32,141 bases of DNA, taken from Thermoleophilia bacterium. GTDB lineage: Bacteria > Actinomycetota > Thermoleophilia > Miltoncostaeales > Miltoncostaeaceae. Below the pieces are notes generated by a model. It saw only the letters and a list, made by a program, of their open reading frames with translations, ran no database searches and had not been told where the DNA came from. The position numbers and the translations under genes were made by a program. Location: contig JAFMJQ010000007.1 of assembly GCA_017853415.1 (NCBI GenBank), forward strand, positions 1 through 32,141, given 5' to 3'. Shown here one piece after another: positions 3,602-31,686 of this stretch (position 1 is the first letter of the stretch; every line of letters begins with the position of its first letter).

Positions 3602-4602
3602 GCGATCAGATCGCATCAATCCTCAAGTCGTGGGGCGAGCCGGCCTACCGCCTGAAGCAGGTGGAGGACGCCCGTCGCGCCGGCGCCCGCGACTGGGAGG
3701 ACGTCACCACGCTGCCCAAGGACCTCCGCGCGCGCCTCGCCGCGGTGGCCCCGCTGTGGACGGTGACCCCCGACGCCATGGCCGAGAGCCGCGACGGCAC
3801 GATCAAGTGGCGCCTGCGCACCGCCGATGGCCTGGCCATCGAGAGCGTGCTGATCAAGCACGCCCGCGGCCGGCGCACGCTGTGCGTGTCGAGCCAGGCC
3901 GGGTGCGCGCTCGGCTGCCGGTTCTGCGCCACCGGTGCGATGGGCCCGGGGCGCGACCTCACCGCCCGCGAGATCGCCGACCAGGCCTTCCTCGCGGCCG
4001 ACGTCGCCCGCGAGGCCGATGCCCGCCTCGGCAACGTGGTGTTCATGGGCATGGGCGAGCCGCTGCAGAACACCGGCGCGGTGTTCGGGGCCATCCGCGA
4101 GATGCACTCGCCCGACGGCCTGGGCATCTCGGCCCGCTCGATCGCCGTCTCCACCGCCGGCTGGGTGCCGGGCATCGAGGAGATGGTCGCCTTCGACATC
4201 CCCGTTCGCCTCGCGCTCTCGTTGCATGCCGCCGACGACGAGACCCGCACGGCCCTGATGCCCATCAACAACCGCTGGCCCATCGCAAACGTGCTGTCCG
4301 CGTGCCGCCGCTACGCCGACCGCACGGGCCGCCGCGTGTTCATCGAGTACCTGCTGCTCGACGGCGTGAACGACTCCGTGTCCGATGCCCGTCGCCTCGC
4401 CACCCTGCTGCGCGACGGCCGCTTCCACGTGAACCTCATCGAGTACAACGCCACCGGCGGCCGCTACCGGGGGTCATCCCCCGACCGCGCCCGCGGATTC
4501 GCCGAGGCGCTGCAGGATGCCGGCCTGCATCCGTCGTTCCGCCGATCGCGCGGCGCCGACATCGCCGCCGCCTGCGGCCAGCTGGCGAACACGCCCGCCT
4601 GA
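3598..4602 (+). CDS. rlmN: 23S rRNA (adenine2503-C2)/tRNA A37 methyltransferase, radical SAM
   Basis: A 334-residue radical SAM enzyme that methylates C2 of A2503 in 23S rRNA, and in some bacteria A37 of certain tRNAs. The iron-sulfur cluster motif CALGCRFC gives C103, C107 and C110, preceded by SSQAG. The SAM-binding MGMGEPLQN follows, and the methyl-accepting cysteine sits near the end in RGADIAAACGQL (C326). The N-terminal YRLKQV and TTLPKDLR blocks are typical of RlmN rather than Cfr. It is slightly shorter than E. coli RlmN. The ATG overlaps the MFS stop (ATGA). Its TGA stop is part of the outer arm of the palindrome at 4597-4782. Confidence 0.95.
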   Translation: MSDQIASILKSWGEPAYRLKQVEDARRAGARDWEDVTTLPKDLRARLAAVAPLWTVTPDAMAESRDGTIKWRLRTADGLAIESVLIKHARGRRTLCVSSQAGCALGCRFCATGAMGPGRDLTAREIADQAFLAADVAREADARLGNVVFMGMGEPLQNTGAVFGAIREMHSPDGLGISARSIAVSTAGWVPGIEEMVAFDIPVRLALSLHAADDETRTALMPINNRWPIANVLSACRRYADRTGRRVFIEYLLLDGVNDSVSDARRLATLLRDGRFHVNLIEYNATGGRYRGSSPDRARGFAEALQDAGLHPSFRRSRGADIAAACGQLANTPA

Positions 4603-4782
4603 CGCGCGGCCCGGGGCCCGCCGCCACCCGAGGGGGGTTCCCGCATTGGGGTGGCGGGGATCGCAGCCGGGGATCCTGCATTTGCGGCCCCCGCAAATGC
4701 CGATCCCGCTTCGGCGAGTGCCCGCCACCCCAATGCGGGAACCCCCCGACCCGGGCGGCGGGCCCCGGGCCGCGCGTCAGGC
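4597..4782. repeat. Giant hairpin element, copy 1, between convergent rlmN and yciI-like genes
   Basis: An inverted repeat filling the whole 174-bp gap between two convergent stop codons and including both of them. Outer arms 4597-4625 and 4754-4782 are perfectly complementary over 29 bp. A 6 x 6 nt internal loop follows (4626-4631, 4748-4753). Middle arms 4632-4658 and 4721-4747 pair perfectly over 27 bp. Inside is an asymmetric loop (4659-4669; 4708-4720), a 6-bp stem (4670-4675/4702-4707) and a 10-bp apical hairpin GCATTTGCGG-CCC-CCGCAAATGC (4678-4700). The right asymmetric segment contains GCTTCGGC, which could form a UUCG tetraloop. There is no T tract. It may be a bidirectional terminator, a structured RNA or a mobile palindrome; its core recurs inverted at 6207-6286. 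Confidence 0.9.
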
Positions 4783-5064
4783 CTGCAGTGCCTCGGCTCC
4801 CGGTGCGGCGAGCACCACGTCGTACTCACGCACGTCGTACTCGGCCACGCCGTGGGTCACGTACGGGTCGGCGGCGATGATGGCGTCGACCTCATCGCGG
4901 GTGACGCCCACGGCGACGAGCAGGCCGCCCTGGAGGGGGATCTCCCGTCCCGCGGCGATGAAGCGCCCCGCCTGCGCGTTCTCGCGCACCCAGTCGCGGT
5001 GGGCGTCGAGGTGCACCTCCACCTCGTCGACGGGCTTCAGGTAGCGGCCGAGCAGCAGGAACAT
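4777..5064 (-). CDS. YciI-like protein
   Basis: A 95-residue protein of the YciI/DGPF-like dimeric alpha-beta barrel type. It begins MFLLLGRYLKPVDEVEVHLDAHRDWV, with the conserved region around the histidine and aspartate (HLDAHRDW), then FIAAGREIPLQGGLLV and the glycine-rich strand leading to the ADPYVTHGVAEYDVREYDVV C-terminal part, matching the common YciI layout (DPY-hydrophobic). The biochemical role of most members is unknown; some act as small hydrolases. It lies 5 nt downstream of the peroxiredoxin gene and is probably cotranscribed with it. Its TGA stop is paired in the outer stem of the palindrome. Confidence 0.8.
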   Translation of the reverse strand: MFLLLGRYLKPVDEVEVHLDAHRDWVRENAQAGRFIAAGREIPLQGGLLVAVGVTRDEVDAIIAADPYVTHGVAEYDVREYDVVLAAPGAEALQA

Positions 5065-5069
5065 CGGGG

Positions 5070-5528
5070 CTACGCCCTGCAGGCGGCGAGCGACGCGATG
5101 AGCCGCTCGGCATCGGGCTGCTTGAGCGGGTGCACCTGGTCGACGTCGACGATGACGCCGTTGGCGTCGATCACGTAGGTGCAGCGGCCCGCCACGCCGA
5201 AGTCGTCGATGTAGACGTCGTACAGCCGGGCGACCTCGCCCTTGGGGTGGAAGTCCGCGCAGAAGGTGACGTCGTCGGCGCCGAGCTGCGCCTTCCAGGC
5301 GTTCAGCGACCCGTGGCCATCGACGCTCACGCCCACGACCCGTGCACCCTCGAAGGCGCCCGGGTCATTCGCGATGGGGGTGAACCAGTCGGTGCACACC
5401 GGCGAGAACGCGGCCGGGAAGAAGTTGAGGTGCACCGGGGTGCCGCGCAGCGACGACAGCGTGAACTTCTCGCCCGAGTCGTCGGTGAGGGTGAAGTCAG
5501 GGGCCTCGGTGCCGATTGCCAGAGCCAT
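5070..5528 (-). CDS. Peroxiredoxin, AhpC/TSA family (AhpE-like)
   Basis: A 152-residue cytosolic thiol peroxidase that reduces hydrogen peroxide, organic hydroperoxides or peroxynitrite. The N-terminal GTEAPDFTLTDDSGEKFTLSSLRGTPVHLNFFPAAFSPVCTDW is diagnostic; the peroxidatic cysteine is C45 in the P-x-F-x-P-V-C-T context. Later cysteines occur in FCADF, GRCTYVID and LAACRA, any of which might act as resolving cysteine; length and the FFPAAFSPVC form are closest to AhpE-like enzymes. The conserved arginine is in AGRCTYVID. The ATG at 5528 is chosen because it begins MALAIGTEAPDF and has a good AGGAG site 7 nt upstream; the longer frame to 5660 is not coding-like. The YciI-like gene follows by 5 nt. 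Confidence 0.9.
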   Translation of the reverse strand: MALAIGTEAPDFTLTDDSGEKFTLSSLRGTPVHLNFFPAAFSPVCTDWFTPIANDPGAFEGARVVGVSVDGHGSLNAWKAQLGADDVTFCADFHPKGEVARLYDVYIDDFGVAGRCTYVIDANGVIVDVDQVHPLKQPDAERLIASLAACRA

Positions 5529-5571
5529 GTCATCTCCTGCTGATCCACATGCTGACGGGGAAGTGAGCGTC

Positions 5572-5577
5572 AGGGTA
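5572..5577 (-). promoter_or_regulatory. Possible -10 box of the peroxiredoxin operon
   Basis: TACCCT on the minus strand, 43 nt before the ATG. Unlike most promoters here it would give a leader, consistent with the AGGAG ribosome site of this gene. Based on motif only. The rest of 5529-5673 shows nothing else clear apart from the AGGAGG site at 5663-5668. Confidence 0.3.
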
Positions 5578-5673
5578 CTTGCTGCGATCCGCGGGGTGCG
5601 AGGTGTCCGGGACCGCCTGTCGAAGGGTGTGCCGACGCCCCGCTGGCGCGTCGTTCCCATTCAGGAGGAATCC

Positions 5674-6162
5674 ATGGCATCCGTGCAGCAGCAGAAGGCC
5701 GCCAACGTCACCATGGCGCTCACCTACGCGGTGGGCGCGCTGGGCCTGGGCCTGGCGTTCTCGACGGTGTTCTCGTCCGACCCCGACCTGCGCTGGGGGT
5801 GCCTGTTCGCGGTGGGGCTGGCCGGCGTGCTGTCGTTCATCCGCCACTCACTGATGCACCGCGGGGATGCCGCCCGCATGGGCTGGGACATGGGGCGCAC
5901 CAACCCGTTCCAGATCGAGGTCGGGCTGGCCAACCTGGCCTGGGGGCTGCTGGCCATCGTGGCGGTGGTGCTGTCGTGGGGGCTGGCCGTGTACGCGGCG
6001 TGCTTCCTGGTGTTCGGCTTCTACATGGCGGGCGTCACGGGCTTCAAGGCGTTGTGGGCGTCATCGGGGCATCCGCAGGAATGGCGCGCGGTGGTTCCCG
6101 CGGCATCGTTCGCCGCCCTGCTCATCCTGATCGGCGCCGCCGGCATGTCGGCCCTGCCGTAG
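5674..6162 (+). CDS. Four-helix membrane protein, function unknown
   Basis: A 162-residue protein with four predicted membrane segments: MALTYAVGALGLGLAFSTVF, the WGCLFAVGLAGVLSFI region, LANLAWGLLAIVAVVLSWGLAVYAACFLVFGFYMAG (long, possibly two helices), and AVVPAASFAALLILIGAAGM. Between them is the polar motif GRTNPFQIEVGLANL, which I associate with an uncharacterised four-helix actinobacterial membrane family (perhaps DUF6790), but I cannot confirm it. The start at 5674 is supported by a strong AGGAGG at 5663-5668. It is divergent from the peroxiredoxin gene. Its TAG stop touches the left arm of the second palindrome. Confidence 0.75.
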   Translation: MASVQQQKAANVTMALTYAVGALGLGLAFSTVFSSDPDLRWGCLFAVGLAGVLSFIRHSLMHRGDAARMGWDMGRTNPFQIEVGLANLAWGLLAIVAVVLSWGLAVYAACFLVFGFYMAGVTGFKALWASSGHPQEWRAVVPAASFAALLILIGAAGMSALP

Positions 6163-6330
6163 CCCCGCCCCAGCCCGCCTGGTGGGTCGGGGCCCCCGCA
6201 CATCGGGGTGGCGGGCACTCGCCGAAGCGGGATGGGCATTTGCGGGGGCCGCAAATGCAGCATCCCCGGCTGCGATCCCCGCCACCCCGATGTGCGGGGG
6301 CCCCTCCGTGCAGGCGGGCTGGGGCGGGGC
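6162..6330. repeat. Giant hairpin element, copy 2, between the 5674-6162 gene and lon
   Basis: The same architecture as the element at 4597-4782, again between convergent genes. Outer arms 6162-6181 and 6311-6330 pair perfectly over 20 bp; a 7 x 6 nt internal loop follows; middle arms 6189-6215 and 6278-6304 pair perfectly over 27 bp. The 80-bp core 6207-6286 is the reverse complement of 4650-4729 except for two substitutions, which restore one base pair (GGGATG/CATCCC here, GGGATC/GATCCC there). The middle arms differ from copy 1 at 7 of 27 positions in ungapped alignment, and each change is matched on the other arm. It begins at the last base of the upstream stop codon and ends 4 bases before the lon stop. 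No T tract. Confidence 0.9.
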
Positions 6331-6334
6331 GCCC

Positions 6335-8754
<2,420 letters not shown>

Positions 8755-24116: not shown

Positions 24117-25082
24117 TCAGCCCGCCGCCGGCGATCCCGGGCGAGGTCCGTCCTTTCGGGTAGCCCACAACGACCAGATGATCGAGACCGCCAGCGCCCC
24201 GACGATGACCGACAGCGAGAGCCAGATGGGCAGCTTGCCCACGGGCGTCTCGGAGAGGATCAGCTTGATGCCGGCGAAGGCCAGCAGGAACGCCAGCCCG
24301 TAGTGCAGGTGCACGAACCGCTTGAGCAGCCCGGCCAGGCAGAAGTACAGGGCCCGGAGCCCCAGCACGGCCATGGCGATTGATGCCCACACGATGAAGG
24401 TGTTGGTGGTGATGGCCAGCACCGCGGCCACGGAGTCGATGGCGAAGATGAGGTCGCTCGATTCGATGGCCACCAGGGCCACGAGCAGCATCGTGGCCGC
24501 GCGCTTGCCGCCCACGCGCGTGAAGAAGCGGTTGCCCTCATACGTGCTGGTGACCGGCATCATGCGGCGCATCAGCCGCACCATCACGTTGTTGCCCGGG
24601 TCCTTCGGCGCGTCGTGCCTGAACGCCATGTGCCAGCCGGTGTAGATGAGGAAGATGCCGAACAGGTAGGCGGTCCAGAAGAAGGCCTCGAGCAGCCCCG
24701 AGCCCACGAAGATGAACGCCAGGCGCATCACCAGCGCGCCGATCACCCCCCAGAAGAGCACCCGGTGCTGGTAGCGGTCGGGCACCGCGAAGTACCCGAA
24801 GATGAGCGCGAAGATGAACACGTTGTCCACCGACAGCGCCTTCTCGATGAGGTACGCCGAGTAGTAGGTGGCCGCCGCGTCGCCCCCCTGCCACATCAGC
24901 AGGATCAGGCCGAACCCGAGCCCGGCGGCGATCCAGATGGTGCTCCACACCGCGGCCTCGCGGAACGACACCACGTGGTCGTCGCGGTGCAGGAACAGGT
25001 CGACGGCCAGCATCACCACGATGCCGCCGCCCAGGGCGAACCACGCCCACAGGGGAACCGCGAAGTCGAGTGCCTCGTTCAC
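24117..25082 (-). CDS. TerC/Alx-family membrane protein, probable Mn2+ exporter (copy 1)
   Basis: A 321-residue polytopic protein with about eight or nine helices. Family signatures: LIEKALSVDNVFIFALIFGYF and, in the second half, AIESSDLIFAIDSVAAVLAIT, whose acidic residues lie in the membrane and likely bind metal. Alx/TerC members export manganese or supply metal to exported enzymes. The gene starts with GTG at 25082, 10 nt after a GGAGG site, and lies behind a manganese-sensing riboswitch (25118-25214), which strongly supports a manganese role. It is the only gene here with a long structured leader of known type. A second TerC, only partly similar, is at 30763. Confidence 0.92.
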   Translation of the reverse strand: MNEALDFAVPLWAWFALGGGIVVMLAVDLFLHRDDHVVSFREAAVWSTIWIAAGLGFGLILLMWQGGDAAATYYSAYLIEKALSVDNVFIFALIFGYFAVPDRYQHRVLFWGVIGALVMRLAFIFVGSGLLEAFFWTAYLFGIFLIYTGWHMAFRHDAPKDPGNNVMVRLMRRMMPVTSTYEGNRFFTRVGGKRAATMLLVALVAIESSDLIFAIDSVAAVLAITTNTFIVWASIAMAVLGLRALYFCLAGLLKRFVHLHYGLAFLLAFAGIKLILSETPVGKLPIWLSLSVIVGALAVSIIWSLWATRKDGPRPGSPAAG

Positions 25083-30746: not shown

Positions 30747-30763
30747 GCGCGCCGCCGGCGCGC
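30747..30763 (-). terminator. GC hairpin at the end of terC copy 2
   Basis: GCGCGCC-loop-GGCGCGC, 7-bp stem with a 3-nt loop, starting at the last base of the TAG stop codon. No T tract follows, so classic intrinsic termination is not supported. Confidence 0.4.
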
Positions 30764-31686
30764 TAGGCCGGGCGCGGGGGCTTCGTCTTGATCCAGCTGT
30801 AGATGATGCTCGTGCCGAGCACCACCACGATCACCGAGAGCGACAGCCAGATCGGCGGGTGCCAGAAGTCCTTCACCAGCATCTTGGCGCCCACGAACGC
30901 CAGCACGATGGCCAGTCCGTAGCTGAGGTACGGGAAGCGGTCGACCAGGCCCTCGAGCACGAAGAAGAGCGACCGCAGGCCCATGAGGGCGAAGGCGTTC
31001 ACCGCGAACACCAGGAACGGCTCGCGCGTCACCCCGAAGGCCGCGGGGATGCTGTCGAGCGCGAACACCAGGTCGGTGCCGGCCAGCATCACCAGCACCA
31101 CGGTGAGCGTGGTGTACATCCACTTGGCGTCCACCTTCACGCGGAACTTCTGGCCCTCGTAGGTGCCGGTGAGCGGCAGCCGCTTCTTGAGGAACTTGAG
31201 GATCGGCGAGTGCTCGGGGTCGGCCGGCTCGTCGGCGTGCCGGAAGAGCTTCCAGGCCGTGTAGATGAGGAACGCGCCGAAGAGGTAGAGCACCCACTCG
31301 GCCTTCGCGATGAGCACCCCGCCCACGAGGATCGCGATGAGCCTGAGCCCGAGCGCGATGAGGATGCCGATGGTGAGCACGCGCAGCTTCGCGGCCGGGG
31401 GCACGGCGAAGAACCCGAACAGCACGATGAACACGAACACGTTGTCCATCGAGAGCGAGTACTCGAGCAGGAAGCCCGACAGGTACTCGGTGGCGTACTT
31501 GGTGTCGAACGCGACACCCACCACGATCGCGAACAGCAGGCCGAGGCCCAGCCACACGCCGGTCCAGGCGAGTGCGCTGCGCAGGCTCATCTCCTTGTCG
31601 CTCTTGGAGATGAACAGCAGGTCGACGGCGATGACCACGACCGTGCCGAGCACGAGCGCGATCCATGCCCAGAGCGGGACGTTCAC
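30763..31686 (-). CDS. TerC-family membrane protein (copy 2)
   Basis: A 307-residue polytopic protein with the same two signature helices as copy 1 but different detail: EYSLSMDNVFVFIVLFGFF (copy 1 has EKALSVDNVF) and GTDLVFALDSIPAAFGVT, and it ends in a helix IWLSLSVIVVVLGTSIIYSW. The second form with SIPAAFGVT is the classical TerC type. Probable metal handling or export. Unlike copy 1 it has no GGGGAGTA riboswitch; instead a 16-bp hairpin directly precedes and includes the GTG start at 31686. A GC hairpin follows its stop. Whether the two TerC proteins have separate metals or partners is unknown. Confidence 0.9.
   Translation of the reverse strand: MNVPLWAWIALVLGTVVVIAVDLLFISKSDKEMSLRSALAWTGVWLGLGLLFAIVVGVAFDTKYATEYLSGFLLEYSLSMDNVFVFIVLFGFFAVPPAAKLRVLTIGILIALGLRLIAILVGGVLIAKAEWVLYLFGAFLIYTAWKLFRHADEPADPEHSPILKFLKKRLPLTGTYEGQKFRVKVDAKWMYTTLTVVLVMLAGTDLVFALDSIPAAFGVTREPFLVFAVNAFALMGLRSLFFVLEGLVDRFPYLSYGLAIVLAFVGAKMLVKDFWHPPIWLSLSVIVVVLGTSIIYSWIKTKPPRPA

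Follow-up and report, generated by a model that had tools for sequence, protein, structure and literature searches.

The window, a stretch of 32,141 nucleotides from a Thermoleophilia bacterium (contig JAFMJQ010000007.1 of assembly GCA_017853415.1, positions 1 to 32,141), contains two long hairpins with near-perfect arms, and these raise the question of whether matched changes in the arms reflect selection on a structure or copying of one arm from the other at the DNA level. An earlier note on this DNA interpreted the compensated changes as constraint on structure, and named DNA-level arm correction as an alternative. The source genome of the window is designated G000, and other genomes of the genus G001 and so on. 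The features of the two hairpins are as follows.

4600 to 4779, plus strand: copy 1, whole hairpin (folding, sequence and gene calls).
4600 to 4625, no strand: copy 1 outer arm facing the radical SAM (RlmN-like) gene, on the side that was overwritten (its homologue is the YciI-side flank of G001, z 6.5).
4650 to 4729, plus strand: copy 1 conserved core, or tip (genus-wide alignment and comparison with copy 2).
4678 to 4700, plus strand: copy 1 apical hairpin GCATTTGCGG-CCC-CCGCAAATGC (sequence).
4754 to 4779, no strand: copy 1 outer arm on the side of the YciI-like gene (homologous to the same side in G001, z 3.4).
6162 to 6330, minus strand: copy 2, whole hairpin (folding and inverted repeats I4 and I10; the core reads on the minus strand).
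6162 to 6181, no strand: copy 2 outer arm, left (20 of 20 positions complementary to 6311-6330).
6189 to 6215, no strand: copy 2 middle arm, left (27 of 27 positions complementary to 6278-6304).
6207 to 6286, minus strand: copy 2 conserved core, or tip (78 of 80 positions identical to the reverse complement of 4650-4729; genus-wide alignment A1).
6236 to 6258, minus strand: copy 2 apical hairpin GCATTTGCGG-CCC-CCGCAAATGC (sequence; the pairs are kept in family members with double changes).
6278 to 6304, no strand: copy 2 middle arm, right (partner of 6189-6215).
6311 to 6330, no strand: copy 2 outer arm, right (partner of 6162-6181).

Both copies are located between convergent genes, as called by a simple codon-usage script. 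Copy 1 reaches from stop codon to stop codon of two convergent genes, TGA on the left and TCA (TGA) on the right. Its outer arms, which are complementary at 26 of 26 positions, start exactly at the TGA of the RlmN-like gene and finish at the TCA with which, in mirror image, the YciI-like gene stops. The first base of the copy 2 stem is the last base of the TAG stop codon of the upstream gene. As the earlier note stated, the core at 6207-6286 is the reverse complement of that at 4650-4729 with exactly two differences in 80 nucleotides (C/G at 4675 and G/C at 4702), which form one swapped C-G/G-C pair, and the outer arms pair without a mismatch over 20 bp (copy 2) and 26 bp (copy 1), yet are mutually unrelated. 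The middle arms do differ from those of copy 1 at about seven ungapped positions in the 20 nucleotides outside the core, but some of these differences are better described as an insertion of 2 nt with a mirrored counterpart on the other arm (CGCACATCGG versus CGCATCGG in copy 1 of G001). The script alignments contain a two-base register shift at copy 2, which does not affect the conclusions. The fold z-scores of the hairpins are -11.8 to -13.9, and none of the shuffles is equally stable. Perfect stems of at least 25 bp occur only twice (both 26 bp) in a background sample of about 1.56 Mb from four genomes of the same family, and a chance origin of the hairpins is excluded because such stems are so rare. 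Elsewhere in the window, two genes 6.6 kb apart (24117-25082 and 30763-31686) contain stretches of about 70-74% identity and are probably paralogs.

The two hairpins belong to a family of palindromic repeats that occupies intergenic sites in a single genus, which bears out their earlier description as a structured repeat family. A DNA search detects the element in 17 of the 20 species of one Miltoncostaeales genus, including more strong copies in G000 itself (for example on contigs C172, C16, C5, C48 and C38), and in none of 22 genomes from other genera of the same family. When a covariance model of the tip is searched against 299 Thermoleophilia genomes, the same 17 species are found, with about 90 copies, which is a lower bound; the 279 genomes outside the genus give only five marginal matches (E > 6e-4), none of which is convincing. 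The contigs matched in an exact-pattern scan of 84,980 species fit genomes of the same genus wherever they are compared. A phage, plasmid or viral origin was rejected, since the viral contigs, phages and plasmids searched contain no match to the element. Each copy has a conserved tip of about 65-84 nt, in which pairing is imperfect, between arms of about 25 to more than 100 bp, so that the near-palindromes are about 110-280 bp in total, and copies with the same tip are present at about 18 distinct loci. A description of this family was not found in the open literature, to which the search was confined (subscription papers lie outside it). Several public records titled Acidobacteria REEB500 or Bifidobacterium breve (L115, L125, L135, L147 and related records) have titles that look misassigned, and probably contain contigs of the actinobacterial genus. 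Two divergent copies lie side by side in opposite orientation at L059:3810-4106, where they are located between divergent genes, and also on G013:C10 and G003:C69.

The unpaired segments of the tip are nearly invariant in the genus-wide alignment, with AGCCG on one side and TTTCG on the other. Their identity, reported earlier for the two copies, thus holds nearly throughout the family, but not absolutely: variation is seen at two bulged positions, at the first position of the loop and at one position of TTTCG. Among orthologous copies of the middle distance class, the mean divergence is 0.055 for the core, 0.20 for the inner arms and 0.28 for four-fold codon sites. Constraint is clear only at the tip. 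The "functional structured element" of the earlier note is therefore a structured element, for which constraint beyond the tip is not clear. The core diverges within one genome (0.056) about as much as between orthologs (0.053), and its identity may therefore result partly from spread or gene conversion rather than from selection. The tip subtypes are bound to loci, such as the ABC-F/thioredoxin junction and the chlorite dismutase junction. Less certainly, the tip may persist through selection on its sequence, or because it is with this part that the element reaches new sites.

Pairing of the two arms within a copy is nearly perfect, but arm sequences show no relationship from one locus to another, and often none from one species to another. 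The orthologous arms that can be aligned contain 270 double changes that keep pairing and 106 one-sided changes, counts which indicate a trend rather than a formal test, because the copy pairs compared share ancestry. Transversions account for 165 of the 270 paired changes (61%). If RNA pairing were selected on one strand, G.T mismatches would be tolerated and A.C mismatches would not, but none of three counts shows such a bias (75 G.T versus 83 A.C in the first, 10 versus 8 for isolated and 27 versus 26 for one-sided mismatches). Judged from these sequence comparisons, the mismatch counts and the majority of transversions argue against RNA selection on the arms, although equal numbers of G.T and A.C would also result if a stem were selected on both strands at once, as for a terminator that works in both directions. 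The paired changes are clustered, with 44 adjacent pairs against 28.7 expected in shuffles. In three copies (L095, L094:5158 and L105), the usual two-against-one bulge of the tip is converted to perfect pairing, with one side replaced. Stems that extend symmetrically over both stop codons are common at convergent loci, and most species have CCCACCTGA and TCAGGTGGG in such stems at locus 3. A point against arm copying is that long palindromes are not in general excess in the background sample of the genus, and nothing genome-wide therefore appears to promote perfect arms. The compensated arms are most likely explained by DNA-level arm copying, and where arms are rewritten in this manner, matched changes alone are no proof of RNA function.

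Besides the converted bulges, direct traces of such copying are found at copy 1. The outer arm of G000 on the RlmN side is unrelated to the flank of G001 on the same side (z -0.5), and its match in G001 is instead the flank across the hairpin, next to the YciI-like gene (z 6.5). The stop codon on the RlmN side is TAG in G001 and TGA in G000. In this one clear case, a flank has thus been replaced with a reverse-complement copy of its counterpart. In addition, the orientation of the tip differs between species at at least seven orthologous loci. The tip of G000 at the copy 1 locus is inverted relative to that of ten other genomes, and each orientation is represented among the species at loci 3 and 4 and at several others. 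Homogenisation of arms together with inversion of the spacer is the reported product of template switching between inverted repeats (PMC8604942; PMC8794818), and both are found in this family, as arm overwriting at copy 1 and as spacer inversion at the seven or more fixed loci. The tip inversion could also be produced by homologous recombination between the arms, without template switching. The absence of a G.T excess, the transversions, the clustering, the tip inversion and the overwriting do not support the view that compensated arm changes represent constraint on structure, and correction at the DNA level is now the favoured reading for the perfect arms.

We propose that replication would stall at the hairpin and that the polymerase would then switch template between the arms, either within or between strands. 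One arm would be copied from the other, so that the arms are homogenised and kept perfect. Arm copying would also repair bulges and invert the tip, and would push the arms outward into the flanks until coding sequence sets the limit. Less certainly, the element may be tolerated, or used as an orientation-independent boundary of 3' ends, because it sits where genes end. As a whole, the explanation that we consider best, with a probability of about 0.68, is that these are genus-specific palindromic repeats with arms shaped by template switching and a tip that is selected or spreading, and that they are either tolerated or used as 3'-end boundaries.

The gene context bears on the possible role. 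Elements face 95 gene 3' ends and 33 gene 5' ends, and members are thus located mainly at 3' ends. They are not always located between convergent genes, as had been considered earlier, because copies are also found at tandem junctions and, in one case, at a divergent junction. Any role must be independent of orientation, because the tip flips freely. A 3'-end boundary and a tolerated mobile hairpin appear about equally likely from the sequences. The preference for 3' ends, the many copies that reach from stop codon to stop codon, and the short GC hairpins at the empty junctions of other species would suit a bidirectional terminator or 3'-end stabiliser, in which both strands of the stem are under selection as RNA and compensation arises by ordinary selection; its function would be orientation-independent, as the tip flips require. 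This reading is possible but doubtful. The U-tract signature is absent, and the region 4500-6450 contains no Rho-independent terminator site (GC stem followed by a T-run). A terminator would not need a conserved tip of 65 nt, nor does the one locus between divergent genes fit it. Overwriting of whole arms including stop codons and mirrored indels would not be expected under stepwise selection, and the 61% of transversions among paired changes also speaks against it.

Copy 2 is a gain specific to G000. The gap to the Lon stop codon is 172 nt in G000, and 7, 16, 18, 25, 32, 32, 75 and 75 nt at the same junction elsewhere (eight junctions of seven species that were read across). The core is absent from all eight of these junctions, and the empty junctions contain short GC hairpins. 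Loci 3, 4 and 5 of G000 carry near-identical long versions, which match over 249-261 bp with 14-20 mismatches; in other species these loci have different arms. From the G000-specific copy 2 and the near-identical loci, spread or conversion between loci seems to continue. No enzyme for spreading was identified. At L063, L067 and L082, contigs fuse the flanks of different element loci, which suggests either inversion by recombination between copies or assembly chimeras.

The same tip at about 18 distinct loci, the gain of copy 2 in G000 only, and the three near-identical versions of 250-260 bp in G000, with different arms in other species, are also what would be expected of a non-autonomous transposable palindrome of the REP or MITE type, in which a transposase recognises the folded tip and the arms are made or modified afterwards. 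This explanation is likewise possible but doubtful. The ends, which a MITE-type transposase needs, are the least conserved part, and conserved terminal inverted repeats are not found. A target-site duplication is not definable, the empty-site flanks of copy 2 being too short and altered, and a larger autonomous version is not seen. REP/BIME repeats with RAYT (TnpA-REP) are likewise intergenic palindromic repeats located mainly at gene 3' ends, with possible spread. REPs are short and have a conserved foot. In the element, by contrast, the tip is conserved and the arms are not. The REP/RAYT system, suggested earlier as a candidate, was rejected, because G000 lacks a Y1 (RAYT) gene, as do several other rich carriers, and the RAYT genes of the genus are flanked by a different family of palindromes. 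In a profile search, PF01797 is present in 11 of the 20 genomes of the genus, and absent from G000, G001, G005, G007, G009, G010 and G014, all of which carry the element. The RAYT flanks of several species contain CCGGTGCCTGACACC or GGTGACAGTCACC hairpins, and the element core was not found near any of these RAYT genes. Separate REP-like palindromes (CCGGTGCCTGACACC / GGTGTCAGGCAC) flank RAYT-type genes at L196, L201, L202 and L203, and also at L245 and L253. Two elements (L076:1082 and L072:944) contain sequence similar to the RAYT-flanking palindrome inside their arms.

A more speculative and unlikely extension is that only the tip is inherited or spread, and that the stem is built anew at each site by copying the flanking DNA of the host into an inverted duplicate, which grows outward to the neighbouring stop codons. 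If true, a mobile tip with a stem made at the site would be a new kind of mobile hairpin.

The very stable folds and the fixed sequence of the unpaired segments would agree with a family of structured non-coding RNAs (regulatory RNA or sRNA) with covarying stems, but this is very unlikely: one and the same locus can have the tip in opposite orientations in different species, G.U tolerance is absent (G.T does not exceed A.C in any of the three counts), and the flanking genes that are annotated share no functional theme. A known RNA family was rejected, since Rfam gives no match at the gathering threshold, and the matches below it, such as microRNA families, are generic hairpins. Fold-back chimeras in short-read metagenome assemblies are highly improbable as the source of the family. 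In favour of such an artefact, the genomes appear to have been assembled from metagenomes, several copies are located at contig ends, and the contigs of L063 and L082 join flanks of different loci. Against it, many species that were assembled separately have orthologous genes in one shared order on both flanks, and the asymmetry of the internal loop is kept within the palindromes.

Of the 18 genomes of genera g3-g12, 16 have canonical SbcD above the profile cut-off, on which the statement of its absence rests; the 24 genomes of g1 (20 genomes) and g2 (4 genomes) have none above it, and SbcC agrees. A divergent pair of Mre11-like and SMC-like genes is present in g1 and g2 instead (for example L191:35-3900). 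Loss of SbcCD as a general cause of the palindromes was rejected, because this divergent pair remains, because g2 lacks both SbcCD and the element, and because background palindromes are not more frequent. At most, the loss is permissive for the palindromes.

The template switching described for quasipalindromes shares with this family the homogenisation of arms, the inversion of spacer or loop, the clustered multi-base changes and the repair of a stem in one event (PMC8604942; PMC8794818). The repeats in those reports are short and lie in yeast genes or RNA genes. In the Miltoncostaeales family, the process would recur at dispersed copies that share a conserved tip and have arms of up to more than 100 bp that extend into coding ends. 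The hairpin elements of sponge mitochondria are likewise dispersed, intergenic and possibly mobile, but their stems are conserved and their loops vary (PMC2800124), the reverse of the Miltoncostaeales element. The coding palindromes of nematomorph mitochondria share the very long perfect inverted repeats that extend into coding sequence, but the abstract on them (PMC6649704) describes neither a conserved tip nor a dispersed family, both of which the element has.

Bacterial chromosomes can thus carry near-palindromes of about 110-280 bp, in a genus where the search detects no canonical SbcCD. It is common to regard compensatory base changes as proving that an RNA structure is functional. The family offers many replicates in nature, with perfectly compensated arms that appear to come from DNA copying and with the conserved tip, the flips and the overwritten stop codons as built-in controls, and it makes directly testable how often covariation reflects a mutation mechanism rather than selection.
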